A program made the position numbers and the translations under genes. Shown here in pieces: positions 12,886 through 63,911 of a DNA stretch of 64,000 bases; within the stretch, counting starts at the first letter, position 1; each line of letters starts with the position of its first letter. The notes beneath the pieces were generated by a model. The model saw nothing but the letters and a program-made list of their open reading frames with translations, was not told the DNA's origin and ran no database searches. The stretch is from Bacteroidales bacterium. GTDB taxonomy: Bacteria; Bacteroidota; Bacteroidia; Bacteroidales; UBA932. Location: contig JAFTMS010000011.1 in the NCBI GenBank assembly GCA_017452265.1, forward strand, positions 1-64,000, read 5' to 3'.

Positions 12886-14154
12886 TTACATCCCTGCAAT
12901 CCAAGGCTTGATTACACCGAAAATTATGTAAGCGACGATAAGCGTTGCAAAGATGTTGAATGTCTGGGCTGTGAGGAACACCTTGAGCGGAGTCCTGTTC
13001 TCCTTTGCGAAGAGTTCCTTGAAGCGTGTCTCAAGGCCGATGCAGACGAATGCGATGCTGAAGAGTGTGCTCTGGAAGCCCTTTGTCACCTTTCCTACCG
13101 CCTTTGCAGTCTCAGGCTCGAAGCAGAAGCTGAATACGAGAGATGCGAGTACAAAACCTACGACGAACTTAGGGAAACGGTCCCAGATCACGCCGAGGGT
13201 AGGCTTTTCCTCATTGTTCTTGCCCTGGTATGTCCACATGAGGGAGATGATGAACGCTGCAACTCCGAGAAGGACGTTCTGAGAAGACTTCACGATTACG
13301 GCAGTCTGAGCTGCGAGGTCGCCTGTCTCAGGAGTGTCTGCAAGCGTACCGGCAGCAGCCACGGCGCCTGTCGTGTCGATTGTTCCTCCAAGCCATGCTC
13401 CTGTCACTTCAGGGCCGAGATGCATGAGGTTTGCAAGCCACGGAAGGAGATACATCATAGGGATGGCGATGATGAGCACGAGGGAAACCACATATGAAAG
13501 CTTCTTGCTGTCGCCCTTGATGACACCGCAGGTCGCGATTGCAGCGGACACGCCGCAGATTGACACAGCACTTGCGAGCATAGTGCCCATCTCCGGATCC
13601 ACCTTCATCTTCTTGCCCACCCAGAATGCGAAATACCACACGCAGAATACGATGATTACAGACTGTGCAAGGCCGTAAGCTCCTGACTTCATGACATTTC
13701 CGAAGAGGATTGTAGAGCCGAGGCATATGATTCCGATCTTGATGTAGAACTCACTGTTTATTGCAGCCTTGAGCCACTGAGGCACACGGAAGCAGTTGCT
13801 TATGATAAGACCGAGAATCACTGCAAAGAACACAGACTCGAAGCCGAACTTCTTGATTACAGGGATATTGGCGAGAAGCTGTGCGCAGAGCGTGAGACCG
13901 AAGATCACGGCGAGAGAAGGGAGCACCCAGACCAGTTCGCCGGCCTTCTTGCCCATGAAGAGCGAGGTCACTATCGTAAGCAGATATACGAAGACAAACA
14001 TGTAAAGAGCTGAAAGCCAGTCTGCTCCAGACGAGAGAGTCTTCGGCATCTTTGGCATTGACTCAGGAAAGATGGCTGCGAGAGCCAGAATGATTGCACC
14101 GGCGAAGACTATGATCCAGTCCTCTGTTGCAAATTGTTTAAGCCATTTCTTCAT
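12886..14154 (-). CDS. YeiH family putative sulfate exporter
   Basis: A 422-residue inner-membrane protein with about 10-11 helices, of the UPF0324/YeiH family. Family marks are GLIISNCFRVP, IGIICLGSTILFG, ASAVSICGVSAAIATCGVIKG and the glycine-rich GGTIDTTGAVAAAG. The sulfate role is a family label; the transported substrate is not established. Its leader carries repeats (14172-14225) that might serve control. Confidence 0.88.
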   Translation of the reverse strand: MKKWLKQFATEDWIIVFAGAIILALAAIFPESMPKMPKTLSSGADWLSALYMFVFVYLLTIVTSLFMGKKAGELVWVLPSLAVIFGLTLCAQLLANIPVIKKFGFESVFFAVILGLIISNCFRVPQWLKAAINSEFYIKIGIICLGSTILFGNVMKSGAYGLAQSVIIVFCVWYFAFWVGKKMKVDPEMGTMLASAVSICGVSAAIATCGVIKGDSKKLSYVVSLVLIIAIPMMYLLPWLANLMHLGPEVTGAWLGGTIDTTGAVAAAGTLADTPETGDLAAQTAVIVKSSQNVLLGVAAFIISLMWTYQGKNNEEKPTLGVIWDRFPKFVVGFVLASLVFSFCFEPETAKAVGKVTKGFQSTLFSIAFVCIGLETRFKELFAKENRTPLKVFLTAQTFNIFATLIVAYIIFGVIKPWIAGM

Positions 14155-14171
14155 AACTGTTTAGTTTTTTA

Positions 14172-14225
14172 GTACACTTGATTTGTACACTTGGCATACG
14201 TGCATCATCAGAGCGGCCCGTATGC
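14172..14225. promoter_or_regulatory. Direct and inverted repeats in the YeiH leader
   Basis: Two direct copies of GTACACTTG (14172-14180 and 14185-14193, 13 bp apart) and an inverted pair GCATACG/CGTATGC (14194-14200 and 14219-14225) lie 18-71 bp upstream of the exporter start. They could be operator sites or a leader structure. Confidence 0.4.
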
Positions 14226-14276
14226 AAGTTCTTTTAATAGGTTATTAAATACCTTGCAAAATAAAGAATTACCAAT

Positions 14277-14315
14277 GAAAAAAACAAACCATTGACAAAA
14301 TTATTCTGTCAATGG
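14277..14315 (-). terminator. Rho-independent terminator of trpS
   Basis: Minus strand: CCATTGACA / TGTCAATGG, a 9-bp stem with a 9-nt loop, followed by TTTGTTTTTTT. It lies 30 bp past the trpS stop. Confidence 0.85.
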
Positions 14316-14344
14316 CCAATAAATCCGACTGATATGTCAATTAT

Positions 14345-15454
14345 TTACTTCTGATATTTCCTGGTATGCTCGGCTATAAGCTCCGCATCGTCGAAATAAT
14401 CGATCTTCATTGCCTTGCGGACATCTGCAAGAGTCTTCGCAGCCTCAGCACGTGCGACTTCCGACCCCTTGCGCAGAATCTCATACACCTGAGGGATGTT
14501 CCGCTCATATTCGGCACGTCTTTCACGTATCGGCTGCAGGATGTCCTCCATTATATTATAAAGGAACTTCTTGCATGTGCCGTCACCGAGGCCGCCCCTG
14601 CGGTAATGGTCCTTCAGAGCGTCGATGTTCTCATATTCAGGAAGGAACTTCACGAAATGTTCAGGTTCGCAGAAGGCATCGAGGTATGTGAACACGACAT
14701 TGCCCTCCACATGGCCGGGATCCGAAATCTGGAGATGCTCAGGATCCGTGTACATGCTGTTCACCTTCTTCTTTATTTCCTTGGACGTGTCCGAAAGATA
14801 GATGCAGTTGCCGAGGGACTTGCTCATCTTTGCCTTGCCGTCGGTGCCAGGAAGCCTGCTGCAGACCGAATTAGATGGAAGAAGAGCCTCCGGAGTGACG
14901 AGGTCTCCGCCGTAAACGGTGTTGAACTTGTGCACGATTTCCCTTGTCTGCTCGATCATAGGGAGCTGGTCATCGCCTACAGGAACTGTCGTGGCACGGA
15001 AAGCAGTGATGTCCGATGCCTGGCTTATAGGATATGTGAAGAATCCGACCGGAATACCTTTCTTATTCTGGTTTTCCTCATCATCCGAAAAGCCTCTGAG
15101 CTGGATCTCCTGCTTCACTGTCGGGTTTCGCTGAAGACGCTGCACGGTCACGAGGTTCATATAATAGAATGCAAGTTCACAAAGCTCCGGCACCTGCGAC
15201 TGTATGAATATAGTCACCTTTTCAGGATCAAGGCCTGCAGAGAGATAGTCCAAAGCCACTTCTATGATGTTCTGGCGCACCTTTTCAGGATTGTCGGCAT
15301 TGTCTGTAAGAGCCTGCGCATCGGCAATCATTATGAATATCTTCTCGAATTCGCCGGAATTCTGCAGCTCCACCCTTCTGCGGAGCGATCCTACATAGTG
15401 TCCGAGATGGAGCTTTCCGGTCGGACGGTCGCCAGTAAGTATAATCTTTCCCAT
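14345..15454 (-). CDS. trpS: Tryptophan--tRNA ligase
   Basis: A class I aminoacyl-tRNA synthetase that charges tRNA-Trp. The 369-residue protein has the HIGH-type motif in [18 protein letters not shown] (residues 7-24), the pocket sequence [16 protein letters not shown] and the KMSKS motif in [11 protein letters not shown]. It is nearer the longer TrpS class seen in several anaerobes than the compact 330-residue form. A -7 box overlaps the end of the upstream GH84 gene, so trpS is probably transcribed independently. Confidence 0.97.
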
Positions 15455-51036: not shown

Positions 51037-51738
51037 ATGGTTTATTCACACGAAGTGCAGCAGATGTGCTGCGTAAAGAAGGGACCTAACCACGGTCCGG
51101 CTCCAATTCCTGAAGAAGGAAAGTGGGTAAAATCAAAGCAGATTACTGATATCTCAGGCCTTACTCACGGTATCGGCTGGTGTGCACCTCAGCAGGGTGC
51201 CTGCAAGCTTACCCTCAATGTGAAGGAAGGCATCATCCAGGAGGCTCTCGTGGAGACTATCGGTTGCTCAGGTATGACTCACTCAGCTGCTATGGCATCT
51301 GAGATCCTCCCTGGCAAGACTCTCCTTGAGGCTCTCAACACGGACCTCGTATGCGACGCCATCAACACAGCAATGCGCGAGCTCTTCCTCCAGATCGTTT
51401 ACGGACGTACTCAGTCAGCTTTCTCTGAGGGCGGTCTTATGATCGGTGCTGGTCTTGAGGACCTCGGAAAGGGTCTCCGTTCACAGGTAGGTACACTCTA
51501 CGGTACTCTCGCAAAGGGTCCTCGCTACCTCGAAATGGCTGAGGGATATATCAAGACTCTCGCCCTGGACAAGAACGACGAGATCTGCGGATACCAGTTC
51601 GTACACCTCGGACGCTTTATGGACCTCATCAAGAAGGGTGTCGATGCAAACGAGGCTCTCAAGCAGGTAACAGGAACTTATGGCCGTTTCTCTGAGGAGG
51701 CCGGTGCAGTTAAATACATTGACCCACGTCACGAATAA
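51037..51738 (+). CDS. NifU-like iron-sulfur scaffold protein
   Basis: 233 residues. The stretch VETIGCSGMTHSAAMASEILPGKTLLEAL resembles, by its parts IGCSG and SEILPGKTLLEA, the NifU/IscU scaffold family; other Cys are at CCVKKG, GWCAPQQGAC. The second half (from about 110) is not from IscU. It is paired with the GGGtGRT gene 15 bp downstream, an association I know from Bacteroidales. Codon choice differs from neighbours (ggt, cgt, gct, cgc-rich) and suggests high expression. Leader of about 100 nt with a small AGGTG/CACCT hairpin at 50954-50966. Confidence 0.75.
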   Translation: MVYSHEVQQMCCVKKGPNHGPAPIPEEGKWVKSKQITDISGLTHGIGWCAPQQGACKLTLNVKEGIIQEALVETIGCSGMTHSAAMASEILPGKTLLEALNTDLVCDAINTAMRELFLQIVYGRTQSAFSEGGLMIGAGLEDLGKGLRSQVGTLYGTLAKGPRYLEMAEGYIKTLALDKNDEICGYQFVHLGRFMDLIKKGVDANEALKQVTGTYGRFSEEAGAVKYIDPRHE

Positions 51739-51753
51739 TAAGGAGGAAAGACT

Positions 51754-52764
51754 ATGATTAGAGAAGTAAAATTCGAAAGCCAGGATCGTCGTATCAACCA
51801 GATCCTCGCAGTTCTCAACGAGAACGGTATCGCTTCTATCGAGGAGGCAAACGCAATCTGCGATCAGTATGGTCTCGATCCTTATATGACTTGTGAGGAG
51901 ACTCAGCCAATCTGCTTCGAGAACGCAAAGTGGGCTTATGTAGTAGGTTGTGCGATCGCACTCAAGAAAGGTTGCAAGAACGCAGCTGAGGCAGCTGAGG
52001 CAATCGGCCTCGGTCTTCAGGCATTCTGTATCCCTGGTTCAGTTGCTGACGACCGTAAGGTAGGTCTCGGACACGGTAACCTCGCAGCAATGCTCCTCCG
52101 TGAAGAGACAAAGTGCTTCGCATTCCTCGCAGGACACGAGTCATTCGCAGCAGCAGAAGGTGCAATCAAGATCGCAGCAAAGGCTGACAAGGTACGTAAG
52201 GAGCCTCTCCGCGTGATCCTTAACGGTCTCGGCAAGGACGCAGCTCAGATCATCGCACGTATCAACGGTTTCACATATGTACAGACTGAGTTCGACTATT
52301 TCACCGGCGAACTCAAGGAAGTACGCCGTATCGCTTACAGCGACGGTCCACGTGCAAAGGTCAACTGCTACGGTGCAGACGACGTCCGCGAGGGTGTAGC
52401 AATTATGTGGCACGAGGGTGTTGACGTATCCATCACAGGTAACTCAACCAACCCAACCCGTTTCCAGCACCCTACAGCAGGTACATACAAGAAGGAGCGC
52501 GTGCTCGCAGGCAAGCCATACTTCTCAGTAGCATCAGGCGGTGGTACAGGCCGTACCCTTCACCCAGACAATATGGCTGCCGGTCCAGCTTCATACGGTA
52601 TGACCGACACAATGGGTCGTATGCACTCTGACGCACAGTTCGCAGGTTCTTCATCAGTTCCAGCACACGTCGAGATGATGGGATTCCTCGGCATCGGTAA
52701 CAACCCTATGGTAGGTTGCACCGTTGCTTGTGCGGTGGACGTTGCTACTGCGCTGAATAAGTAA
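51754..52764 (+). CDS. GGGtGRT protein
   Basis: 336 residues, named for its motif ASGGGTGRTLHPDN (about 268-282). The family has no known biochemical function; it occurs in anaerobes next to a NifU-like scaffold, as here, and has conserved Cys (MTCEETQPICFENAK, GCTVACAVD). A ggagg site precedes the ATG. Codon use is like the NifU-like gene and unlike the backbone, suggesting strong expression. The last 164 bp are duplicated at 63623-63786 because an integrative element has entered here; the protein is intact. Confidence 0.92.
   Translation: MIREVKFESQDRRINQILAVLNENGIASIEEANAICDQYGLDPYMTCEETQPICFENAKWAYVVGCAIALKKGCKNAAEAAEAIGLGLQAFCIPGSVADDRKVGLGHGNLAAMLLREETKCFAFLAGHESFAAAEGAIKIAAKADKVRKEPLRVILNGLGKDAAQIIARINGFTYVQTEFDYFTGELKEVRRIAYSDGPRAKVNCYGADDVREGVAIMWHEGVDVSITGNSTNPTRFQHPTAGTYKKERVLAGKPYFSVASGGGTGRTLHPDNMAAGPASYGMTDTMGRMHSDAQFAGSSSVPAHVEMMGFLGIGNNPMVGCTVACAVDVATALNK
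52601..52764 (+). repeat. Left copy of the 164-bp direct repeat (attL side)
   Basis: From tgaccgacac to the stop codon of the GGGtGRT gene this segment matches 63623-63786 with six differences, all at third codon positions and all synonymous (aca/act, cca/ccg, gtc/gtt, gag/gaa, gtg/gtt, gac/gat). Identity ends exactly at the stop codon. The longest identical block is about 60 bp (atgatgggattc... onward) and the last 24 bp are also identical; crossover probably occurred in one of them. Confidence 0.9.
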
Positions 52765-52788
52765 TCTATTGATACTTAATAGCTTTTG

Positions 52789-52818
52789 GAGACATCCTTT
52801 CGAGGGTGTCTCTTTTTT
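52789..52818 (+). terminator. Terminator after the GGGtGRT gene, supplied by the element
   Basis: gagacatcc / gggtgtctc hairpin followed by six T, 25 bp past the stop. The host's own terminator now lies at 63886-63911. Confidence 0.8.
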
Positions 52819-52890
52819 GTGCTTATATCCAGCCTGTTGTCTTTGTCACTTGTGCTTTGCTCATTTCAGTTCAGCCACATCTATATTTTC

Positions 52891-53104
52891 TTTGTGACGG
52901 TATAAATAGATTATCCCTTGTTTTAACTGTATAATAGCCCTGTTCAGGCTTAGTTTGTGACGGTTTTGTGACGGACTTTTGACACCGTCACAGAAGTAAA
53001 ATCCTGCTTTAAACCATGTCTAACACCTCCTTTGATCATTTGTTATTGGCAAAAGTAATCATTCCGTGACTGCTCCGCAACTTTATCAGCCACACCGTCA
53101 CAAA
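52891..53104. repeat. Left cluster of integrase arm-site-like repeats
   Basis: TTTGTGACGG occurs at 52891-52900, 52954-52963 and 52965-52974; its inverse CCGTCACA(AA) at 52985-52992 and 53095-53104; a partial CCGTGAC at about 53064-53070. Repeats of this kind next to one element end, with similar ones at the other end, fit arm-type binding sites of the integrase. The stretch 52765-53286 otherwise has no convincing gene. Confidence 0.65.
53049..53080 (-). promoter_or_regulatory. Leftward promoter inside the left end of the element
   Basis: Minus strand: GTTG, 20-nt spacer, TACTTTTGC (53057-53049). Downstream lies AGGAGGT and an ATG, but the frame stops after two codons (ATG GTT TAA). Confidence 0.45.
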
Positions 53105-53286
53105 GTAATTCCACGATTCGACTTACCATATATTCTGGGATATTGTATGTTGCCAAACACTCAATATCACATAGTTAAAGATATGTGGAACGGCTTATCC
53201 CACCTTCGTAACCTTTGGTTTGGCACTTCCTATATAGCTGAGTATAATAGCCATATAATTAAGTATCACTCAAAAATTTTTGAATT

Positions 53287-53475
53287 ATGGATAGCAGGAA
53301 ATTAAAGAAAAGAAAAAGGCAGGCAGACAAGACAAAGAGGATTTTCGAGGAATTGAACAGACCTGTGACCTACATCCTCGATGATGTAAAGGAAACTGTG
53401 ATCACTGAAAACACCTACAGGGCAATTCCTTATAAAGTCCTGAAAACCTATTTTCTCCCTAAGGGATTGTTCTAA
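53287..53475 (+). CDS. Small basic protein of unknown function
   Basis: 62 residues, Lys/Arg-rich N-terminus (KLKKRKRQADKTKR), no membrane segment. I do not recognise it. A terminator directly follows, supporting a real transcription unit. It is the only rightward gene of the element. Its size and charge would suit a DNA-binding accessory (excisionase-like) protein, which is speculation. Confidence 0.5.
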   Translation: MDSRKLKKRKRQADKTKRIFEELNRPVTYILDDVKETVITENTYRAIPYKVLKTYFLPKGLF

Positions 53476-53482
53476 AACGAAG

Positions 53483-53521
53483 AAAGCGGTATTTGACCCA
53501 CAAAGTCATTTACCGCTTTTC
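53483..53521. terminator. Bidirectional terminator
   Basis: AAAGCGGTA / TACCGCTTT stem (53483-53491 and 53511-53519) with A-run and T-run on either side, between the small gene and the convergent lipoprotein gene. Confidence 0.75.
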
Positions 53522-53543
53522 TTGTTATGAATATTATCAGACC

Positions 53544-54347
53544 TTAGTTCCAAACTATAGTATATTTTTCTTCGAACCCAAACTCATTACCATCATCGCT
53601 ACACATGTTGCATTCCGTTATATATCCTTCGCCGTCAAATTTGTAGTTACATATTCCATTTATTGTTTCAGAAACATTGCGATCATTTTCATCGAACCAA
53701 TAATATGTTTTCGAAAAATGGGTTGGTAGTATATCGGTTCTTCCACCAATAAGTTCAGGATGTGCGACGCACAAAGGATTTTCGTAGAATCCAGATGAAA
53801 GGACATATGGGATAATCGGATTAAAGCCATTGGTTTTGATAGTTGGCATATCACTATCGTAAATAAAACGAAATGACTCGGTAAGATAGCCTTGAGTTCC
53901 TCCGTCATAAACTCCTCTCGAGTAAAATTCTCCACTACTAATCCAACTGAATCTGTAAGCATATTTGGATGTTGTCAGATCTGTAATCTCTACTAGTCGT
54001 CCATCGTTGTATCTGACATCATAATAACTGTTGTAATTGCGAATAAGCCCATCATTTAATGAGGCCACTCCATATGGTGATATAATTGCATCGTTGTTCC
54101 AAACATAGTCGTGTTCTTGCGTATATTCTCCATTATTATGTATAACCTTCAGCAATTTTCCAGCATTGTCATATTTGAAGTCCCATAGTGAATAGCCAAA
54201 GTCTGAACTATTTATTTCTAATCTTGTAATCTTCTTCTCACCTGTTACTAATTCGTATTGAGGCTCTACTTCTTTGCTACATGCTGAGAAGTTTACACAG
54301 AATAGAATAGTTCCTATGGCTATTCCAATAAATTTTAGAGTTTTCAT
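53544..54347 (-). CDS. DUF4595-like lipoprotein, paralogue 2
   Basis: 267 residues from the ATG at 54347 (MKTLKFIGIAIG); lipoprotein signal ends VNFSACSKE (Cys about 23). The body has repeated YD-like short beta hairpins (WDFKYDNAGKLLKVI, YKFDGEGYITECN) of the DUF4595 type. It shares with its neighbour the segment IPY...NPLCVAHPELIGGRTDILPTHF. Cargo of the element; surface or periplasmic; function unknown. It is 18 bp downstream of the paralogue. Confidence 0.75.
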   Translation of the reverse strand: MKTLKFIGIAIGTILFCVNFSACSKEVEPQYELVTGEKKITRLEINSSDFGYSLWDFKYDNAGKLLKVIHNNGEYTQEHDYVWNNDAIISPYGVASLNDGLIRNYNSYYDVRYNDGRLVEITDLTTSKYAYRFSWISSGEFYSRGVYDGGTQGYLTESFRFIYDSDMPTIKTNGFNPIIPYVLSSGFYENPLCVAHPELIGGRTDILPTHFSKTYYWFDENDRNVSETINGICNYKFDGEGYITECNMCSDDGNEFGFEEKYTIVWN

Positions 54348-54365
54348 TATAGTCATATCTAAAGG

Positions 54366-55049
54366 TTATTCCCAAGTCAAAATCATTGGGTTTGACTGAT
54401 TTAAATAAATTTTAGTGATATAGCCCTCTTTGTCAAATTCATATGTCAAGAGGATGCCACCTATCATTGTAGGCAATTGTTTGGTTCTTACTCCCAAAAG
54501 CTCAGGATGTGCCATAGATAAGTTATCATATTGAAAAATAAGATATGGGATAAGAGGACAATAACCTTTCTTTAAAGGTTCTCCATAGGTAAATGATAGA
54601 TTAGAGCCTACATAGCTTGAGATTGTTTTAATTTTGTCGCCATCCCAAGTAATTGTGGTTGTATCATATTTAGTAAGTCTATTAGAATCGTTGTAAGTGA
54701 ACGTTTCGTCACCACTATTGCTCTTTACTCTTCCATTTTCCAAAGCAACTGCATATTCGTCATCAATCATGATAACATTGTCACTCCAAGTATAATGATT
54801 CGTCCAAGCATATTCCCCAAAATCAAACGAGCATGTTGATTCAGTCAGTCTTCCCTTGTCATCATATTTGAATGTAAAGACTTCCAGATCTTTCCCACTT
54901 TCGTCATCCTTCGCAACCAACTTAACAAGTTTCTTCTCGTTGGAAAAATCTTCGTTACCATCCGGATTGTCATCCTTACTGCATGAAGTAAAGCCTACGC
55001 CCATAAGAACAGCCATCATTGCCATTCCAAACATTCTTAATGTTTTCAT
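54366..55049 (-). CDS. DUF4595-like lipoprotein, paralogue 1
   Basis: 227 residues, lipoprotein signal ending VGFTSCSKDD (Cys about 23). The body consists of YD-like hairpins (FTFKYDDKGRLTES, FTYNDSNRLTKYD, TYEFDKEGYITKIY). Shared with the downstream gene: CPLIPYLIFQYDNLSMAHPELLGVRTKQLPT, cited here by its ends CPLIPYL and ELLGVRTKQLPT. Tandem duplication followed by divergence is likely. Function unknown. Confidence 0.78.
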   Translation of the reverse strand: MKTLRMFGMAMMAVLMGVGFTSCSKDDNPDGNEDFSNEKKLVKLVAKDDESGKDLEVFTFKYDDKGRLTESTCSFDFGEYAWTNHYTWSDNVIMIDDEYAVALENGRVKSNSGDETFTYNDSNRLTKYDTTTITWDGDKIKTISSYVGSNLSFTYGEPLKKGYCPLIPYLIFQYDNLSMAHPELLGVRTKQLPTMIGGILLTYEFDKEGYITKIYLNQSNPMILTWE

Positions 55050-55415
55050 TCTCTTGAATTTTGTTGTGCCCTCACAATTCCCAGATGAAAGCGGGTATAA
55101 ATAAAGGTGTGGGAACTTATTGTCTTATCCTACACTCGGGTCTTCGCATTACCTCTGGAATGGATAAAGACAATAGCCCACACCAAAAGATATGTGAAAA
55201 GCCAAGATAGGCTGTACATATCAAATGATGTGATGCCACTGCCTATTATCTTCATTCCATTTTCAAAGTTGCGAAGTTTGAGTGTAGAAGATAATTTCAA
55301 TAACACCTTTTTGTCAAAATGTCCTTCTTTGCCATTGCTGGCTCGGAATTGCGACAAAGTTAACAAAAAGATGTGATATTGTATAGATTCCCAATTCCAA
55401 TTTTCTGAAATGGCA

Positions 55416-55468
55416 GGTAGATTTTCAAGGTCTCCCTGTATAAGAGAAAGATTTCCTAAAAATCTACC
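55416..55468. repeat. Inverted repeat after the short recombinase gene
   Basis: GGTAGATTTT (55416-55425) and AAAATCTACC (55459-55468), a perfect 10-bp pair with a 33-nt loop, 10 bp past the stop of the recombinase gene. It may end its transcript. The rest of 55050-55478 shows no convincing gene. Confidence 0.5.
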
Positions 55469-55478
55469 ATGCCTAAAA

Positions 55479-56066
55479 TCAGAATGTCAGACAGTCATAA
55501 GTCTCCAAAATTTCCTCCTGTCTCAGACCCAAGTATCGTTTAGTAATGCTTACGCTGGAATGATTGAACAATTCCATAAGTTTAACTAAGGCGAGTTCTG
55601 CATTATCAGAGGATTCAAACACTTTTCTGCCAAAGGTCTTTCTTAACGAATGGGTGGAGAAGTGCTTTATCTTCAAATTGTAATGGTCTTTCAGTTCTTT
55701 AAGGACAAGGTTTATCCATTGCACAGAATAAGGTTTACCTTTGGTGGATAGGAAACAAGGTTCGTCCATATTCTCAATATGTAATGCTTTGTGACAGTCC
55801 TTGATATGTTTCTGAAACCCCTTGTTTATCTTCACTTCTCTGCGTTTCCCTGTTTTCATCTCTATCAGCACAAACTTGGCTTCATCGTTCATAAGCATAT
55901 TCCAAGTAAGGCGTAACAGGTCAGATATGCTTAAACCAAAGAAAATTCCACACCCAATAAGCAGACTTATTCTGTAGTTCTTATCCCTGTAGAGTTTCCT
56001 CACCAATGTTGTAGCACTATCCCATTGTAGATAATCGCTAGTTGTGTAGCTGTTCTTCAAACTCAT
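55479..56066 (-). CDS. Short tyrosine recombinase, catalytic domain only
   Basis: 195 residues, lacking arm-binding and core-binding domains. Catalytic parts: KTGKRREVKI (Lys), HSLRKTF (HxxR), FNHSSVSITKRYLG (His and Tyr nucleophile). At the Arg I position, normally GLRISDLL in this subfamily as I recall it, it reads GLSISDLL. IntDOT-type integrases can work without Arg I in that place, so inactivity is not certain. Such short recombinases are frequent in Bacteroidetes elements. Confidence 0.82.
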   Translation of the reverse strand: MSLKNSYTTSDYLQWDSATTLVRKLYRDKNYRISLLIGCGIFFGLSISDLLRLTWNMLMNDEAKFVLIEMKTGKRREVKINKGFQKHIKDCHKALHIENMDEPCFLSTKGKPYSVQWINLVLKELKDHYNLKIKHFSTHSLRKTFGRKVFESSDNAELALVKLMELFNHSSVSITKRYLGLRQEEILETYDCLTF

Positions 56067-56176
56067 TTCAATAATATTTGATTTTTAATGTAAGTGAAAG
56101 TAAAATTAACTCCCATTATTTAAGTGATTGATAATCAATGAGCGTTAATTTCACTATTAGGTAAAAGTGTAAGTTA

Positions 56177-56629
56177 TTAGATTTGCCCATCATCAGCGAA
56201 ACTATAGCAGTTCTCCCTTGTATAGATGATATGGTCTAACACTTGGATGTCTAAGAGTTTTGCGGCTTTGGTAATCTGATTTGTAGTCTTTATGTCTGAC
56301 AGACTTGGCGTGACATTTCCGCTTGGATGATTATGTGCGAGAATCATTGCCACAGCATTAGTAAGTAATGCACCTTGCAGGATTGTACGGACATCGCAAC
56401 AGGTACTAGCCAGCCCTCCCTCTGATATGATTCTGCATCCAAGAACGTGATTGTTCTGATTCAGATATAGGACTCTGAAAGTCTCTGTATAGTCAAGTGT
56501 GTCATCATCGTGGATTTTCAGCATTACCTTGTATGCATCCTTTGCATCACGAATCTTTGTCCGCTTGTCGTATGGAACAGTGTTTCTATAAGACAGTTGC
56601 ACCTCTGCTATGTTGAAATTTGTATTCAT
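56177..56629 (-). CDS. JAB-domain RadC-like protein
   Basis: 150 residues. The JAB metallopeptidase-like motif is intact: LAHNHPSGNVTPSLSD (HxH...S...D zinc set). Unlike chromosomal RadC it lacks the N-terminal helix-hairpin-helix. RadC-like proteins of this length are typical of Bacteroidetes mobile elements; function unproven, not a DNA repair enzyme as once thought. Confidence 0.88.
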   Translation of the reverse strand: MNTNFNIAEVQLSYRNTVPYDKRTKIRDAKDAYKVMLKIHDDDTLDYTETFRVLYLNQNNHVLGCRIISEGGLASTCCDVRTILQGALLTNAVAMILAHNHPSGNVTPSLSDIKTTNQITKAAKLLDIQVLDHIIYTRENCYSFADDGQI

Positions 56630-56650
56630 TTCCTTTATAGTTAATTAGTT

Positions 56651-56681
56651 AAAAAGAGGACACCCGATAATGGATGTCCTC
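56651..56681 (-). terminator. Rho-independent terminator
   Basis: Minus strand GAGGACA / TGTCCTC stem followed by five T, just after the small membrane-protein gene. Confidence 0.8.
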
Positions 56682-56689
56682 TCTAAGTG

Positions 56690-56818
56690 TTAATGAATAT
56701 TTATAAAAATTATGTACGCAATGAGCAATAGTAAAAATAATGGTGGGCATATGAAACATAAACCCACCAAAACGATTATTACTATAAGCCAGATAATGAT
56801 AGGAAACAGACTTCTCAT
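56690..56818 (-). CDS. 42-residue small membrane protein
   Basis: Frame ATG at 56818 to TAA at 56690: begins MRSLFPIIIWLIVIIVLVGL and is almost wholly Ile/Leu/Val, i.e. one or two membrane helices. It starts 2 bp after the DUF3871 stop and a terminator follows 9 bp after its stop, so it fits the transcript exactly. An overlapping 67-codon frame at 56649-56852 is less likely, since it overlaps DUF3871 and runs into the terminator. Confidence 0.6.
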   Translation of the reverse strand: MRSLFPIIIWLIVIIVLVGLCFICPPLFLLLLIAYIIFINIH

Positions 56819-56820
56819 AG

Positions 56821-57834
56821 CTAATCAATAAACCATTTGTATTCCTCATCACCGTGTAAAGCCAAGTTTATTCCTTGTGCCATTTCAGTAGCGTTCAGAG
56901 AACGGTCTAGGAAAGAATCTATATAACTGCTCTTGTTAGCTCCTGTCAACAGATTGTAAAATTTCCACATGTTGAGTTCTCCACCTATACCACAGAAATT
57001 TTCATCATGGATATAGGATTTTGCAACAGAGTTTATTTGGGTATCTGTCAGCAACATTCTTGGGATTCGTTTCTGCATGACTGTTGGCAAGCATTGATAA
57101 AGTCTCATTCTGCCTAAAATCTGACAGAACTGATGTTCGCTCATTGTTGTGTTTCCTAGAGTCTGCAACAGGTGGATTTGTTTCGCTGGATTGAAATTGT
57201 TGAATAGTTCCATAGCTCCGTTATATAGTTCAGCGGCATTGGTAACTCTCAAATCATCTTTGTAGCCATCTGTAAATATGCACATATTACAGCATACTTG
57301 ATTCTTAAACCCTATAGCCAATTTGAAAAGTTCTGGACTTTTCTTTGAATAGAGATTCATCTGGTTATAGGCTCTAACTCCAACTATAGAAAGGTTTAGT
57401 TTATTCCCTTCTATTGTTTCATAGATAGATGGCACATCTATACTGAAAGCACATCTTTCATAATAGATAGTCTTTTCACTCTCTAGGAGTTCATTTGCTT
57501 TCTTGTGAATCGCTTCCGGTGTTCTGCCCTTGATAACATGAGAAACACGGATTTTCGGAGCGTCCACAATTTCACCGCTAAAGTAATCTTTTACGGCAGC
57601 CATGATGATGTTAATAAACTGTGCATGGTTAATTGTCAGTTCATTGTCTTTAGCGAAAACAGGTGTTATACACTCATTAGATAAATGGTAAATATCCACT
57701 TCCTGCGTATTCGCTTCTATAAAGTGTAAATTACTGCTAGCTCTGGAAAGATTGTCAACAATTTCCGCTTCCTTTGCAACTTGATTGAAATTGCGTTCTC
57801 TTACCTGTGTAGGCATTAAAATTAAATTACTCAT
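56821..57834 (-). CDS. DUF3871 family protein
   Basis: 337 residues from the ATG at 57834 (MSNLILMPTQVRERNF). It matches what I know as DUF3871, a family confined to Bacteroidetes mobile elements and of unknown function. Marks: HVIKGRTPEAIHKKANELL, FSIDVPSIYETIEGNKLNL, CNMCIFTDGYKDDLRV, GELNMWKFYNLLTGANKSSYID. No signal or membrane segment. Followed at 2 bp by the small membrane-protein gene. Confidence 0.78.
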   Translation of the reverse strand: MSNLILMPTQVRERNFNQVAKEAEIVDNLSRASSNLHFIEANTQEVDIYHLSNECITPVFAKDNELTINHAQFINIIMAAVKDYFSGEIVDAPKIRVSHVIKGRTPEAIHKKANELLESEKTIYYERCAFSIDVPSIYETIEGNKLNLSIVGVRAYNQMNLYSKKSPELFKLAIGFKNQVCCNMCIFTDGYKDDLRVTNAAELYNGAMELFNNFNPAKQIHLLQTLGNTTMSEHQFCQILGRMRLYQCLPTVMQKRIPRMLLTDTQINSVAKSYIHDENFCGIGGELNMWKFYNLLTGANKSSYIDSFLDRSLNATEMAQGINLALHGDEEYKWFID

Positions 57835-58311
57835 ATTGATAAGTGTTAAAAGGTTAATAGATAATCTTCTTTTTATATCAATACTGAGGAGGGGAATAAA
57901 GGGGTTATCTGCCACAGTTCGGGTCTCTATATATGATTAGGGGGCGAGATTCTTATGGGAGGGGTTTATATATACTTCTGAGGGGGACTTTTCTGATTTT
58001 TAGCTGAACTGTATATATCTAATAAGGAGACAGTGAACATCTTTAGAACATAATAGCTAATGATGTGTGATTTTTAGTTGCTACTATATATCCTGAAATT
58101 CAGACAGATTTTGCACATATCCTGATTCGCGGATTTTTGGGCAATATGCTCCTGCACCCATTAAAAATTAAGAGCCATAAGTAATTGCTTACCTACGGCT
58201 CTGTAACCATTAACTATGTATGTAATGATGCGATTTTGAATATAATGAGGGTGTTGGCGACATTTTTTACTAGGGACTATAAAATAATTTCTTGACAAAA
58301 ATTGTCGTAGC
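57835..58311. other. Gene-poor region upstream of DUF3871
   Basis: An AT-rich stretch with runs of G (aaagggg, ggggg) and no convincing gene or promoter. It contains the terminator of the helicase-like gene: AGAGCC / GGCTCT hairpin at 58171-58202 with a T-rich tail on the minus strand. Confidence 0.5.
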
Positions 58312-60108
58312 TTATAGGATTCTTGATCGAATGAGATAATATCCTCTCTTTTTATTATGCTCCTGCTTCACAGCCTCAAAGAAATCAGTGATAGTATGAG
58401 ATGTTACAGCCTTTTTAGGCTTCAAGCCCACTAAGCCAAAAATTCGCAGAAGTTCTGATTTGATAAAGCTAGCAGAGTACCATTGTCCTGCATAGAAAGA
58501 ATTTGCAATCAGTTTCTGTACCTCATCTCCTCTTGCTCTCTCATTGAAGTCCGCCAAGATCATAGCTTCCTTGATTCTTTTAGTGCTGTATTTCAACTTC
58601 TCAATTTCTGATTTACCGATTTTGAGGTAAGCATCCACAATGAATTTGTCAGCTTCCTCCAAACCTTGTAGCAACTGATAATCCATTTCGGTTTGACAAG
58701 GACAGAGCAGTTCCAACTGATTTACTATTGCTTTCCTTTTCTCTTTTATAAGTTTGGTATTGCAAACAATCAATCGCTGTTCATCGCCCAAGACATAGGA
58801 TTCATCCTCAGCGGTAACATTAAACATTCCGCAGTTAGCATATCGTTCTACTAGGTAGCCGTCATTATTGTAGAAGCCCTTTACGAAATCAAAGTTAATC
58901 TTAAAGTCAATTTTGTAGAAGCTAGTTCTTCCTTGTTCATCAAGCATATCCTTATATGGTGAACATTCCAAAAGGGTCTTGTATGCATCTCTAGCAGAGT
59001 TTGTAGTTGCATATGCATAAAAGGATTTGATCTGTTCATAGTTAAACCTTAAACATTCCATTGTTCCTTTCAGCTCATCCTTACTACGTATATTGAAGCG
59101 TGGATTGGTGTTAGTTACGAGACATATATTTCCTACCCCGTTTCTGAATCTGCCTACACACTGCACAGCATCCGTATATGGATCGAATATAGTGTAGTCT
59201 GCAATATAACAGTCTGCAAAGAGAAACACATTAGGTTTGAAATTTAGCTCAATATCTACAGCATTGTAAAAACGGGAGGTAAACCAATTGTACTGCATCA
59301 TCTTGCTTTCATCCCACACATCTGTTACGTTGTTGAACTTTGCTCTTTTCAATTTCTCTACACTCTTTTCAGAACAGAAAACAGCGGACTTGTCCAGAAT
59401 ATCAAGACGTATCATTAGCTCATATATCATATCTGTAGAGTTGCAGAATATGAAGCACTTGTCTTGCTCTTGCAGTACCTTTTTAACTGTAGGCAACACA
59501 TTATTTGTTGTGATGATATGCAGGTTCTGCACGTAACTGAAAGTCGGTACAATTTCAAGAATGTTAAAGTCCTTAAATCGAGGGTCAGTGAACTCCAATG
59601 GCGTAGCAGAAACCAATGCTTTATTCTCACATTCAAAGAACAGATCCATAGGAAGACTGATATGTTCTCTAAATCCTGAATCTTTAATGATCTTGTGACA
59701 TTCATCGAACAGCAGGAAGCAGTCGAAGCGTATATCCATATCCATGTCCTCAAAGGCGTTACGAACCTTGCAGAAACTTTCTGGAGTAGTAAGGATTTTG
59801 ATGCGCTTGCCTTGCTTTTGGCTACGGATCATATATCTTAATATGTCCTCTGCATAGATGTTGTCATGTACTCCGAACAGGTTATCATCCCTGTGCTTTG
59901 GGTCGTTGCACTTGCCTATGATCACAGGCTTGTTCGGCTCTATGATTACAGAGTTACGATTCGCCTTGATTTCACCATATGTAGCTCCAAGCCCTGTAAG
60001 CTTCTTATATAATATGGTGTTGGTAGGGATTACTTTATGTGGGAGCACATCCGTAAGGTATTGCCGCCTGCCACCTACCAATCCAATTTCAATATGTTTA
60101 GTTATCAT
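58312..60108 (-). CDS. Helicase-like protein with aberrant Walker A
   Basis: 598 residues with superfamily-2 helicase order: motif II LLFDECHK (DECH), motif III ALVSATPLEF and motif VI AVQCVGRFRNG. Motif I should be GxGKT, but the corresponding N-terminal segment reads LTGLGATYGEI with no Lys. Motifs at about 35, 130, 165 and 310. It may bind rather than hydrolyse nucleotides, or use another Lys. The C-terminal half (about 380-598) is unrecognised. Possibly the element's replication or maintenance protein. Confidence 0.72.
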   Translation of the reverse strand: MITKHIEIGLVGGRRQYLTDVLPHKVIPTNTILYKKLTGLGATYGEIKANRNSVIIEPNKPVIIGKCNDPKHRDDNLFGVHDNIYAEDILRYMIRSQKQGKRIKILTTPESFCKVRNAFEDMDMDIRFDCFLLFDECHKIIKDSGFREHISLPMDLFFECENKALVSATPLEFTDPRFKDFNILEIVPTFSYVQNLHIITTNNVLPTVKKVLQEQDKCFIFCNSTDMIYELMIRLDILDKSAVFCSEKSVEKLKRAKFNNVTDVWDESKMMQYNWFTSRFYNAVDIELNFKPNVFLFADCYIADYTIFDPYTDAVQCVGRFRNGVGNICLVTNTNPRFNIRSKDELKGTMECLRFNYEQIKSFYAYATTNSARDAYKTLLECSPYKDMLDEQGRTSFYKIDFKINFDFVKGFYNNDGYLVERYANCGMFNVTAEDESYVLGDEQRLIVCNTKLIKEKRKAIVNQLELLCPCQTEMDYQLLQGLEEADKFIVDAYLKIGKSEIEKLKYSTKRIKEAMILADFNERARGDEVQKLIANSFYAGQWYSASFIKSELLRIFGLVGLKPKKAVTSHTITDFFEAVKQEHNKKRGYYLIRSRIL

Positions 60109-60166
60109 TTCTTATAAGAATTTAAGGAAGAGAGAGAGGGTTAGCTCCCTCTCCCTTGGTTACTGA

Positions 60167-60844
60167 TTAAATAAACTGTCCAGCTTCACGCAAATAGTTA
60201 ACAATCTGTTCAGTTCTCTTTACTCGAAAAGTTATCTTTCCCTTTTTGCAAGGAAGAAAGGCAGAAACGTAGCCTGGTCTTTCCCTAAAAAGAGGGGTAC
60301 ACTGTAACATCATCCCCTTATCCACAAACAACTTCATAATGTAGAAATCACTAGTAAACTTAGCTACTTCGTAATCCTCTGGTGCAGGATCGAAGTCGGT
60401 TACTTCACCCTTTGTCAAGTAGCGAACTATGCCGTTAAAAGATTCATTCTTCAGATAGTACTTAAAACCAGCCACTCCTCTGGTCTCAATCCATGCATAG
60501 TGGAAATTTTCCTTGTCAAGTCGGAATTCAACATTAATATTGCCGTTCCTGTTCATGATTGACAACAGGGTTTCAAAAGCACCTGTATTATCATATGCCT
60601 GCTTCACGTTAGGCTTGTCACAATCAAGTGTGAAGTCAAAGCTGCCTGCGGGTTCTGCACCCATGTTCTCATTGAGGGATAATTCCTCAGAATATTCATA
60701 AACATTTTCGCCACCATGAGTCGGGCGTGCGTAAATATCATCGAGTTCCTTCTCGATATCTATTTCTGGGACAGCTACTATTTCAGCAGTCTTGCTATTC
60801 CTGTTTGCGTTTCGGGTCGCCACCACTACATTCTTCTTTTCCAT
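60167..60844 (-). CDS. Unrecognised element protein (225 residues)
   Basis: From the ATG at 60844 (MEKKNVVVATRNANRNSK). Acidic N-terminal part, then a mixed alpha/beta body (HYAWIETRGVAGFKYYL, FLPCKKGKITFRVKRTEQI). No recognised motif, membrane segment or signal. It lies 58 bp upstream of the helicase-like gene and probably shares its transcript, started from the promoter at 61058-61089. Confidence 0.7.
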   Translation of the reverse strand: MEKKNVVVATRNANRNSKTAEIVAVPEIDIEKELDDIYARPTHGGENVYEYSEELSLNENMGAEPAGSFDFTLDCDKPNVKQAYDNTGAFETLLSIMNRNGNINVEFRLDKENFHYAWIETRGVAGFKYYLKNESFNGIVRYLTKGEVTDFDPAPEDYEVAKFTSDFYIMKLFVDKGMMLQCTPLFRERPGYVSAFLPCKKGKITFRVKRTEQIVNYLREAGQFI

Positions 60845-61057
60845 AATTAAATAAATTAATGAATTTATACTTTTGTTATTATCAATCTTCAACGGGCGCC
60901 CATGTTGTTGATTGTTGTGTCAAAGTTCAAAGAGAGGTTTACTCGGTTCTCTGTAGCGATCTTGATTCTACCTTACTATTCTTCGGAGTGAACTTCCTTG
61001 TGTTGTTATTGGAATGAATCGCTACCGTTTCTCTTTCTACTCTCATTGTTTGACATT

Positions 61058-61089
61058 GCAAAGGTACGGCTAATTTTTGTTTTTGCAAT
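61058..61089 (-). promoter_or_regulatory. Promoter of the helicase-like operon
   Basis: Minus strand ATTG (61089-61086), 19 nt, TACCTTTGC (61066-61058). It gives a leader of about 200 nt, containing a GGGCGCCC palindrome at about 60894-60901. Confidence 0.7.
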
Positions 61090-61119
61090 ACCTAAAGCAT
61101 TGACTATCAATATATTAAC

Positions 61120-61192
61120 GCGTACTAAAAACCAGCAAGTTTACAGTACGCAAAAAAAATACGTACCAAAAAGTTTTACCTTTTCAGTACGC
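61120..61192. repeat. Iteron-like GTACGC repeats
   Basis: CAGTACGC at 61144-61151 and 61185-61192 (41 bp apart), the inverse GCGTACT at 61120-61126 and a related TACGTACC at about 61160-61167, each next to an A-run. They lie just upstream of the helicase-operon promoter. Operator sites or replication iterons are both possible. Confidence 0.5.
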
Positions 61193-61217
61193 ATTTCAGT
61201 ATATCGTGACTTAATTA

Positions 61218-62192
61218 TTACAGCATGTAGTGACCGCCCATAAGCATTGGAAATTCCTCGTTCTTATACCTTCTCAACAGGTTGGATAGCATCCTGTTCT
61301 TGTTACAGTCTTCATCGTATTCCACATAGTACCTCTCGGTATCGTAACCTACCACATATATCAACCTAGATATAAACAGCAATTTGTCCTTTGACACATT
61401 ATATATTGAGTTCTTAGGTTTGGTCGCTTTCCTGTCTTTCAAGAAGTGGAGGAATATCTCAGCAAACTTCAATTTCTTATATGAAACGTCAAGGTGTGAC
61501 TTCTCTTCAAAGTTGAAAGGCTTCGTATCACTAACTATATAGCCACCTATCTTGTTCAGATTCTCTACGATTTCTTCTCTTGATGATTCACTTCTAACTA
61601 TATCATTATAGGAGTTAATGTAGTGCTGTACTGCTGACTGTATTATCTTTATCGTCTCCTCCCTTTCTACCTCATAGCTCTTTCTGTTATCCTTCTTCAA
61701 AGTAATACTTGTAGCTTCTGACAACTTTGCTATAAATCCGTTGACATCATCCAATGTACTTTTACCAAATGAAGGGGAATTATTCGCAAGATCCTCTATA
61801 TAATCATGCACAAATAGAAGCAGATACCAGAACTTACTTACGTCAAGTCCAAATGCTCCAATGGTATCTTGGAGTTCCCTACTACTTAGGTACAGTTCCT
61901 TGTATGAATCATTCACAGGTTTATCATCTGCATGGTATTTCAGATAATCTTCCAATGATTCATTAGAGATATAAAACTCTTTGTATCGTTCGTATCTTTC
62001 TTCCAGAGATAGATTCCTTTGGTGGTATCGCTCGCAGAAAACAGCAGGTGCTTGTGAGTCAGGCAAGCTACCGCCAATATTAGGTAAGAAATGATTGGCT
62101 ACTTCCCAGACATAATCCAGAAGTTCTATACCTTCATATTCGTAATATTCCTCTATGTTGAGCCGTATATCTGGTAGTTCTTGTATCTCCAT
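61218..62192 (-). CDS. Unrecognised element protein (324 residues)
   Basis: An acidic, helical cytoplasmic protein with no motif I recognise (LSLEERYERYKEFYISNESL, FWYLLLFVHDYIEDLANN, LKFAEIFLHFLKD). It has its own -7 box (TACCTTTG at 62216-62209). Its stop lies next to the GTACGC repeats, between integrase and helicase-like operon, a place often used by regulators of element transfer; that is inference. Confidence 0.7.
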   Translation of the reverse strand: MEIQELPDIRLNIEEYYEYEGIELLDYVWEVANHFLPNIGGSLPDSQAPAVFCERYHQRNLSLEERYERYKEFYISNESLEDYLKYHADDKPVNDSYKELYLSSRELQDTIGAFGLDVSKFWYLLLFVHDYIEDLANNSPSFGKSTLDDVNGFIAKLSEATSITLKKDNRKSYEVEREETIKIIQSAVQHYINSYNDIVRSESSREEIVENLNKIGGYIVSDTKPFNFEEKSHLDVSYKKLKFAEIFLHFLKDRKATKPKNSIYNVSKDKLLFISRLIYVVGYDTERYYVEYDEDCNKNRMLSNLLRRYKNEEFPMLMGGHYML

Positions 62193-62208
62193 TTCCTCAA
62201 ATTTTGCT

Positions 62209-62254
62209 CAAAGGTAAAAAGAAAATCCCACTCATATTAGCTATAAGTGAGATT
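62209..62254 (-). terminator. Integrase terminator and promoter of the 324-residue gene
   Basis: Minus strand AATCTCACTTATA / TATGAGTGGGATT (13 bp, two G-U pairs; 62254-62224) then a T-rich tail ends the integrase transcript. TACCTTTG at 62216-62209 follows, the -7 box of the next gene. Confidence 0.65.
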
Positions 62255-62277
62255 GTTTTCATGCAATATATGATTGC

Positions 62278-63489
62278 TTATTCAGCCGTATAGGTATTCA
62301 TCAGTTTATCCATTTCTTCACCGATGCAAGTATCTACCAGCTTTGCATAATGTTCGGTCATTCTCACATTGGAGTGACCAAGCATTTTTGACACCACGAT
62401 CAATGACACATTATTTGCTAAAGTTACCGTACTTGCGAATGTGTGCCTAGCGGTGTGGTAAGTTATTCGCTTATCTATATTGCACAGGATCGCTATATCT
62501 TTCAGAAATAAGTTGATGTCTTTAGGAGAGAAGATAGGCATTAAGGTCTCATTACCAGCATACTTATCTAACAGCATTTTGGCACTAGGCAATAATGGTA
62601 TGCGAGACAGAACCCCTGTTTTTACTCTATGCTTCTTTATCCACATTCTACCTTGTTTGTCGCGTTCCAGATGTTCTGGCTTCAAGGTCTTCACGTCTAT
62701 GTAAGATAATCCTGTATAACAAGCGAACAAAAACATATCTCGTGTCTGCTCTAGTCTTGGTAATGGAGAATTAAAGTTTATGATCTTACGCAATTCTTCT
62801 TCTGTAAGGAAATCTGGAGAAACAGTCTGCCTTTCCAATCTGTAGGTCGCGAATGGATTGAATGACATCTTATTATTAGCTACCGCACGATTAACTACCT
62901 TCTTCAATAGAGCAAGATATTTAACTGCACCATTATGAGATAAATGGTGCTCTGTAAGAAGCCATATACGGAACTCCTCTATGAAATCACGATTCAGTTC
63001 ACGCAAGAACACATCATCACGGTTATAGGTATCATTGATGAATTTCTCCAGCAGATTCAGACCATGTTTTGAGTTGGCATATGTACCTTTAGAGACTCCC
63101 ATGCCTATCTGCTTAAATTGCAGTTCATTGTGCTTTCTGTATATTCCAAGAATAGTTTCTTCTTTAATCAATTCCACTTTATTCAACAGGGCATCACGAA
63201 GAAGTGTTGCTGTAACCGCAAATCCATGCTTTACTAACTTTAATTCCTCATCGTAAATACGGACACGCATATTCTTTAGATATTCATTCAAGGACACAGC
63301 TTCTGGATTCACTCCACGAACACACTGCTTATCCTTGTTCCATGATTCTAAAGCGACCAACTTACCTGTGGAGAAAACTACTCGTTCATCGCCTAATGTG
63401 ATCAATACTTCAATAGGTGCTTTACCTGTTTTGTTCACCTTGCTTGCTCTCACTATAAAAGAGAGATTATAAATACTCTTGTTAATCAT
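62278..63489 (-). CDS. int: Tyrosine site-specific integrase (IntDOT-like)
   Basis: 403 residues with the full Bacteroidetes integrase plan: arm-binding N-terminal domain (about 1-95, FSTGKLVALESWNKDKQCVRG), SAM-like core-binding domain (about 110-215, KYLALLKKVVNRAVANNKM) and catalytic domain. Catalytic residues: Lys in KTGVLSRIPL, HTARHTFA (HxxR), LGHSNVRMTEHYAK (His and Tyr). At Arg I it has TGLSYIDV, the Ser-containing form typical of IntDOT relatives. It starts 134 bp from the right repeat and is the enzyme expected to move the element. Confidence 0.93.
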   Translation of the reverse strand: MINKSIYNLSFIVRASKVNKTGKAPIEVLITLGDERVVFSTGKLVALESWNKDKQCVRGVNPEAVSLNEYLKNMRVRIYDEELKLVKHGFAVTATLLRDALLNKVELIKEETILGIYRKHNELQFKQIGMGVSKGTYANSKHGLNLLEKFINDTYNRDDVFLRELNRDFIEEFRIWLLTEHHLSHNGAVKYLALLKKVVNRAVANNKMSFNPFATYRLERQTVSPDFLTEEELRKIINFNSPLPRLEQTRDMFLFACYTGLSYIDVKTLKPEHLERDKQGRMWIKKHRVKTGVLSRIPLLPSAKMLLDKYAGNETLMPIFSPKDINLFLKDIAILCNIDKRITYHTARHTFASTVTLANNVSLIVVSKMLGHSNVRMTEHYAKLVDTCIGEEMDKLMNTYTAE

Positions 63490-63498
63490 ATCATTTTA

Positions 63499-63518
63499 CT
63501 GTGACGTCTCTGTGACGG
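63499..63518 (+). repeat. Right arm-site-like repeats
   Basis: CTGTGACG at about 63499-63506 and TGTGACGG at 63511-63518, same motif as the left cluster, directly upstream of the integrase start. The stretch 63519-63622 has nothing else visible. Confidence 0.55.
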
Positions 63519-63622
63519 ACTGTCATTTCTAAGACTTTAATTAAATAATCTCAAGAGCATAATCTGTTTATATTCAAATTATTAGCAAATCAGATATTTT
63601 GATGACTGAAGCCTTTAGCATT

Positions 63623-63786
63623 TGACCGACACTATGGGTCGTATGCACTCTGACGCACAGTTCGCAGGTTCTTCATCAGTTCCGGCACACGTTGAAATGA
63701 TGGGATTCCTCGGCATCGGTAACAACCCTATGGTAGGTTGCACCGTTGCTTGTGCGGTTGATGTTGCTACTGCGCTGAATAAGTAA
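63623..63786 (+). pseudogene. Displaced 3' fragment of the GGGtGRT gene (attR side)
   Basis: A 164-bp copy of the end of the GGGtGRT gene, including its stop codon, with six synonymous differences. It lacks the rest of the gene. It is the other boundary of the element and leads into host sequence. Confidence 0.9.
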
Positions 63787-63885: not shown

Positions 63886-63911
63886 AGAGATACTCCGATT
63901 GGGGTATCTCT
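63886..63911 (+). terminator. Original host terminator of the GGGtGRT gene
   Basis: AGAGATACTCC / GGGGTATCTCT, an 11-nt stem with one mismatch, loop gatt, then a T-rich tail. After it an inverted pair TTTTATGGA / TCCATAAAA lies at 63951-63959 and 63985-63993; nothing else is seen to the window end. Confidence 0.75.

Follow-up and report, generated by a model that had tools for sequence, protein, structure and literature searches.

The window analysed here is a stretch of 64,000 nucleotides of contig JAFTMS010000011.1 (assembly GCA_017452265.1; positions 1 to 64,000 of the forward strand) from a Bacteroidales bacterium. It contains an intact GGGtGRT gene whose 3' end is repeated, with a period of 11,022 bp, as an orphan copy. 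The unit between the two copies measures 11.0 kb and carries an integrase gene that adjoins the right copy (Table 1). A clade of related integrases is tied to the same gene in other genomes, a congener has a site without the element, and phage contigs carry the gene end together with an integrase of this clade. With these observations in hand, we are highly confident that the unit is an integrated mobile element whose integrase belongs to a Bacteroidales family with the 3' end of the GGGtGRT gene for its bacterial attachment site (attB).

The first-pass annotation of this DNA had described 164-bp repeats with six silent third-position differences and an identity ending exactly at the stop codon, and both descriptions are accurate. 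The copies agree at 158 of 164 positions, the mismatches (52611, 52662, 52671, 52674, 52737 and 52740) all lie at codon position 3 and are silent, and the agreement breaks off at the TAA stop codon. The next three bases differ, and four more matching bases past this triplet look like chance. The right copy covers residues 283-336 only, with no gene body in front of it. A repeat search of 51-64 kb (seed 12) reported no other family of direct repeats with a length of 25 nt or more. A tRNA gene was ruled out as the integration target, as none was found in 50-64 kb.

In the mechanism that we propose, the integrase would recombine attB in the gene with an attachment site on the element (attP) that brings along the final ~54 codons with their stop codon and a terminator. 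The integrated state would then combine a host-derived front of the gene with an element-derived end, and the original host end would be displaced to the far side to form the orphan copy. The copies would differ almost only silently because both ends were coding sequence before insertion. We pooled 12 pairs, each comparing a gene with an orphan or, for the phage, the Segatella copri gene with the phage end, and omitting the window genome's own L/C41 comparison and G740 as near-repeats of other rows. Among the 84 differences in these pairs, 76 fall in third positions (p 1e-27 against one third), and the amino-acid changes are T/Q (twice), N/S, S/F, F/Y and I/L. Decayed copies with deletions or insertions also occur, namely the third copy of the window's genome and those of G021, G500, G473, G678 and G569.

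A link between the integrase and the gene comes from integrase searches that were made without regard to the gene and from which the queries were excluded in counting. The clade members found besides the queries are G337, L182, G032, G475, G502, G661, G724, G842 and G992 (G032, G475, G502, G661 and G724 at E<=1e-85), and 9/9 adjoin a GGGtGRT end, whereas such an end lies beside 0/28 of the next-best integrase loci (L154-L181) within flanks of ~1.5 kb per side or less at contig ends. These 28 loci have 34-44% identity to the window integrase and are the next best among many further matches. In a tree, a single branch (SH-aLRT 100) separates 18 site-bearing integrase rows from the 28. Several of the 18 rows were first met through the gene end, seven stood in an earlier tree, and the G736 integrase is identical to that of Bacteroides fluxus, so that these two rows are not independent. 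In the window and in L182 the integrase adjoins the orphan end and points away from it; in the other 16 of 18 rows it lies behind the gene or a gene-end copy and reads in the same direction. Relative to its integrase, the element can therefore be inserted in either orientation. The earlier proposal that the 3' gene end is the integrase target, with the protein restored, gains support from this tie, as it does from the congener site without the element, the repeated insertions elsewhere and the phage contigs with an attP-like gene end. A different account would have RecA-dependent homologous recombination through the 160 bp of shared gene end insert the units, with the integrase as a passenger. 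It would accommodate the integrase-less units between gene ends (in G500 and in the window's second unit) and the occurrence of ends of differing length, yet neither the tie between clade and gene nor the clustering of left repeat edges (18/21 copies) would be expected under it, and we consider it very improbable.

Insertions at the same site recur in other genomes. Among the 100 genomes of the window's genus in which a GGGtGRT end was present, eleven (G000, G032, G473, G484, G500, G569, G572, G647, G661, G668 and G674) have, as judged from the match positions, at least two separate ends, which in G674 are two whole gene ends. The spacing between gene and orphan is 18.0 kb in G032, 23.9 kb in B. 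fluxus YIT 12057 (NZ_GL882614.1) and 12.4 kb in the single-contig genome G337; the integrase and the DUF3871 protein are common to all three, and the RadC-like protein and the short recombinase are also common to G032 and G337. Simple duplication of the segment with the gene end, or an assembly artefact, might be suspected in a metagenome-assembled genome (MAG) in 45 contigs that is 84.5% complete. The same layout with an integrase in single-contig G337, in a B. fluxus isolate contig and in metagenome contigs rules this out, and we give it next to no credence. A GGGtGRT end was present at E<=1e-6 in 100/300 genomes sampled from the window's genus; the target gene thus seems patchy there, with gaps in MAGs contributing.

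Units also occur in tandem, and the window's genome has more than two gene-end copies. Its contig reads gene, 11-kb element, orphan, 1.3-kb DUF3990/DUF3791 cassette and damaged third copy, the last lying beyond the window (C6:65077-65230) and internally deleted. Two IMG/VR contigs, G733 and G736, each have two clade-like integrases with a gene end between them. The cassette (L025:13787-15230, equal to G000:C6:63787-65230) is without an integrase and is a PADLOC candidate, PDC-M13; in G500 (L243:1069-2537) a cassette that looks alike by eye follows the gene as the only unit and is accompanied by a related damaged copy. A further orphan GGGtGRT end is found on contig C41 of the window's genome (L026:1-4571), flanked on one side by element-like DNA with a HEPN/MNT-like pair (by eye) and on the other by chromosomal-looking genes, including a deoxyribosyltransferase-like gene (Pfam). 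The same deoxyribosyltransferase-like gene lies behind the gene in L042 and behind the orphan in G032, which makes C41 a candidate for the far (right) end of the array.

An empty-site comparison had been proposed earlier, and G484, a congener and not the window's strain, provides one: judged by its flanks, it is a site without the element. The first 154 bp of the flank behind its gene are 95% identical to the flank behind the orphan of this MAG, and the part of the flank that starts at 104 bp is 98% (G572) and 95% (G661) identical over 216 bp to post-orphan flanks. The post-orphan flanks of G572 and G661 are themselves 96.4% identical over 3 kb, and G661 has the gene, a clade integrase and the orphan all present. 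L042 and the S. copri locus L092 have one gene end per genome, and element proteins were not found in these loci. Some points weigh against the integrated-element interpretation. The G484 gene contig stops 395 bp behind the gene, and neither an excised circle nor a same-strain empty site of the window element was seen. In addition, 6 silent differences in G484 and 7 in G572 separate the orphan from the gene allele found in that MAG, which a simple single insertion would not predict; an orphan therefore need not match the end of its own host exactly.

Strand exchange most likely takes place near the left edge of the repeat, in a predicted interval that starts ~165 bp and stops ~143 bp before the last codon ends (negative positions below are counted from this point). 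Exchange near this edge is favoured because left edges cluster and because the left half differs silently; it would correspond to the icd arrangement, with replacement of all sequence to the right of the exchange. The left edge lies at -161 to -176, at or just before TGACNGAYAC, in 18/21 measured copies, a set that leaves out G992, G842 and the right copy of G088. P. barnesiae contig ends were set aside for possible assembly overlap. The sequence left of the edge is unrelated except in L182 and L050. Change points in the similarity of gene 3' ends fall at -165 (L042/L043), -147 (L047/L153) and -144 (L001/L043), with others away from the left edge at -225 and -240 (L007/L043 and L006/L043). A number of observations speak against an exchange at the left edge: to the left of it, L182 and L050 have a gap and then gene-like sequence again; the deleted copies in the window genome and G500 extend further left; and shorter copies exist (L049, 106 bp; L100, 111 bp; L045, 72 bp; G992, ~90 bp; right copy of G088, ~136 bp), which would suit a more central core. 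A comparison of left and right copies with close hosts gave no consistent assignment of the host-derived copy: the gene copy of the window and G032 is equally close or slightly closer to hosts in both halves, and G661 shows the opposite in the left half.

We also weighed an exchange by the same element in a central block ~66 to 42 bp before the end, GGTAACAACCCNATGGTAGG, with the part to its left representing extra homology that is refreshed through recombination with genes of the host. This block is common to the copies compared; L045 (72 bp) and G992 (~90 bp) keep it or a near form of it while lacking the left edge, and it is also present in the copies with internal deletions (window genome and G500). 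In the 12 pairs, however, third positions account for 47/49 differences left of -66, the side on which a stretch carried by the element would be untranslated, and for 26/32 right of -42. The change points at -165, -147 and -144 also argue against the central block, yet those of L007/L043 and L006/L043, at -225 and -240, do not lie at the left edge either. We regard exchange in the central block as a tentative, rather doubtful possibility.

The gene end is also found in phage DNA. In IMG/VR it occurs at 17 loci in 16 records; an integrase match was found in 8/16 records, with 54-91% in seven of these eight. Two contigs, G740 (65.8 kb) and G741 (39.3 kb), are ~99% identical over ~19 kb except for a transposase-bearing insert in G740, and phrog_6681, the crAss cargo domain crAss_CARG1 (in G740) and their gene order place them in the Crassvirales. 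On one side they encode a terminase and a head protein with 52% and 68% identity to those of cr116_1 (Crassvirales, Steigviridae), while early and replication genes lie on the opposite side; the contigs are largely colinear with cr116_1, with three ORFs (open reading frames) out of order. Between the modules (L263, L264: 10001-11586) lie 55 GGGtGRT codons with a stop, a T-tailed hairpin (by eye) and a clade integrase. The GGGtGRT end and integrase occupy the place where cr116_1 has a tRNA cluster, and no tRNA was found in L264. Because phage genes lie on both sides, this gene end would be the attP of a free phage. It matches the S. copri locus L092 at 162/171 bases, the best among the loci compared. 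A third contig, G992 (L284: 4612-6093), whose flanks are likewise largely colinear with those of cr116_1 (TerL 52%, head protein 68%), has TerL 91% and integrase 80% identical (the integrase against that of G741) and a shorter gene end; its att-integrase segment is inverted relative to the flanks.

The balance tips slightly towards a crAss-like lineage, within the Crassvirales and near the Steigviridae, that would be lysogenic by means of this integrase and a GGGtGRT-end attP (~55 codons, stop, terminator), with S. copri or a close relative as the target and a module shared with other Bacteroidales elements. We treat lysogeny of these contigs as a lead. A search of 249 genomes from the S. copri genus for an integrated crAss-like prophage found none: crAss TerL gave 0 matches at E<=1e-60, in a search with no positive control, and the phage integrase gave 1 match, G842, beside the GGGtGRT gene, in whose element piece, as far as read, only the integrase matched crAss-like phages. 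Steigviridae and other families were thought incapable of lysogeny, and epsilon crAss-related prophage sequences are described in Parabacteroides (PMC11054128); the Steigviridae and related families are likewise taken as lytic in PMC8375218. Integrases have been noted in a subset of crAss-like phages (PMC9980608), 12 crAss-like phages were reported among pig gut prophages (PMC12454387), and the word integrase is absent from the main text of PMC7886860. Literature searches on crAss lysogeny, at listing level, brought up no paper naming the GGGtGRT gene. At this site, lysogeny could be tested directly for an order of phages whose Steigviridae and related families are taken as lytic (PMC11054128; PMC8375218).

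Phage 21 and e14 are icd integrators, and icd systems show silent differences between their ends. By the features tested, the window element is of the icd type, a gene-restoring integrase element: an integrase with arm-binding, SAM and catalytic domains stands beside its end, the border repeats leave the reading frame intact, and a relative has an empty site; its excision and integration by the integrase are predicted. Like integration into icd in Escherichia coli, it involves a tyrosine integrase, a site internal to a protein gene and, as proposed for the window element, an attP with a replacement end (PMC10111431), but the gene, the phylum and the integrase are different, and one target serves non-phage elements, cassettes and apparently a crAss-like phage. 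Section 19 of PMC10111431 describes, for integrases with internal sites, identity blocks of up to ~250 bp and an attP with the replacement gene end. The repeat is indeed longer than an integrase core, as first noted; its length is not an oddity, since long repeats are known for integrases of this kind (PMC10111431). Nor is a protein-coding target with full repair unusual, as had been claimed, given the precedents of icd and of the targets of integrative and conjugative elements (ICEs) and integrative and mobilizable elements (IMEs). The latter insert at the 3' ends of protein genes, as here, in rpsI, rplL, guaA, lysS and rpmG (streptococci) and yicC (a gammaproteobacterial IME), leaving the product unchanged or nearly so (PMC4701971, PMC5704250). 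Neither a relaxase nor a transfer gene was recognised among the 9 scanned proteins of the window element, and the recombining sequences of ICEs measure 2-60 bp (PMC4701971) against ~160 bp here. The Bacteroidetes IMEs NBU1, NBU2 and MTnPi4 also have tyrosine integrases but target tRNA genes (PMC5704250).

As far as searched, the target gene, the integrase clade with its spread, and crAss-like contigs with the gene end are new; at listing level, no paper on GGGtGRT was named as treating an attachment site. One precise chromosomal address is thus used by integrative elements, by toxin-antitoxin-like and defence-like cassettes and apparently by crAss-like phage. The target gene is found in many gut Bacteroidales, and the site is a candidate attB for engineering Bacteroidales genomes and a hotspot to mine for cargo.

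Scans of the 9 element proteins against Pfam, PHROGs and NCBIfam found no relaxase families, and no type IV secretion or conjugation genes were found among the 9 proteins scanned in 11 kb, so the type IV secretion genes of an ICE are not in evidence. Since neither relaxase nor secretion genes were recognised, we do not class the element as an IME or ICE. The 9 proteins, several of which are without any family, likewise gave no PHROG matches to phage structural or packaging proteins. For the 598-aa protein the best match in PDB was no better than E 0.23. Repeats cluster at the element ends: exact TTGTGACGG occurs at five sites in the window, four at 52892-53103 and the fifth at 47967 outside the element, and CCGTCACA has 6 occurrences in 950 bp of both element ends and 0 in the interior. 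These repeats are putative arm sites of the integrase. One arm motif common to all elements was sought and not found; each of four two-ended elements has its own end-enriched word (CCGTCACAA, AAAGTGGCA, CGGCTGCAA and TGCACACA). Upstream of the target gene, the NifU-like gene belongs to the host and lies outside the element; in Bacteroides thetaiotaomicron, BT0173-74 is a GGGtGRT and NifU pair within the iron stimulon (PMC10434189).

Table 1. Genes, repeats and hairpins at the GGGtGRT locus of the window (coordinates on the 64,000-nt stretch).
Feature	Coordinates	Strand	Remarks
NifU-like gene, upstream	51037..51738	+	PF01592 E 4.5e-4, 20.8 bits vs cut-off 22 (weak)
GGGtGRT gene, target	51754..52764	+	336 aa, intact; PF14057 E 3.6e-190; last ~54 codons inside repeat
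Left repeat copy (attL side)	52601..52764	+	encodes the protein's end; 158/164 identity with right copy
Intrinsic-terminator-like hairpin, element side behind restored gene	52788..52813	+	1 found vs 0.3 expected in shuffles
Arm-type-like repeat cluster, TTGTGACGG	52892..53103	.	exact: 52892, 52955, 52966 (+), 53095 (-); 1 mismatch: 52985 (-)
Lipoprotein-like ORF (by eye), cargo	53544..54356	-	270 aa; no Pfam family; related ORF in short L050 insert
Lipoprotein-like ORF (by eye), cargo	54366..55049	-	227 aa; weak DUF4595/RHS repeat
Second, short tyrosine recombinase	55479..56066	-	catalytic domain only, PF00589 E 5e-20; relatives in G032, G337, L182
RadC-like JAB-domain protein	56177..56629	-	PF04002 E 1.3e-38
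DUF3871 protein	56821..57915	-	PF12987 E 2.3e-159
598-aa protein	58312..60108	-	DECH-like motif by eye, no family match; 45% homologue in IMG/VR contig G743
241-aa protein	60167..60892	-	no family match; homologue in G743
324-aa protein adjoining integrase	61218..62192	-	no family match
Integrase	62278..63489	-	403 aa; Arm-DNA-bind_5, SAM_5 and Phage_integrase domains
Two arm-type-like repeats between integrase and right copy	63501..63518	+	GTGACG at 63501, CTGTGACGG at 63510
Right orphan repeat copy (attR side)	63623..63786	+	158/164 identity with left copy
Terminator-like hairpin behind orphan copy	63886..63911	+	2 found on two strands vs 0.2 expected

Cargo of another kind is seen in the G032 element, where L027:11875-14685 holds defence-like genes, a PLD-domain protein with weak DrmC matches and an AbiGi match (PADLOC).

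Exchange of the gene end between genes was examined with 45 genes that have no indel against a 336-codon reference, giving 990 pairs. General horizontal exchange was rejected: averaged over divergence-binned pairs, the 3' end is no more alike than the rest. Three of the 990 pairs exceed the Bonferroni level, all with L043 as one partner (the others being L042, L001 and L007) and hence not independent, and L047/L153 comes near it. At p<1e-3 the last window has 8 pairs, the first 54 codons have 12 and the five windows between have 0-1. The signal for exchange is only suggestive because the first 54 codons give more raised pairs than the last window; on this suggestive footing, the last ~54 codons of a host protein may pass between species by mobile DNA. 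The L043 gene has a 3' end unusually close to that of the window's genus, and downstream of it lie an inverted gene-end fragment and remnants of a window-type element (L043:11123-11182 and 13187-14906).

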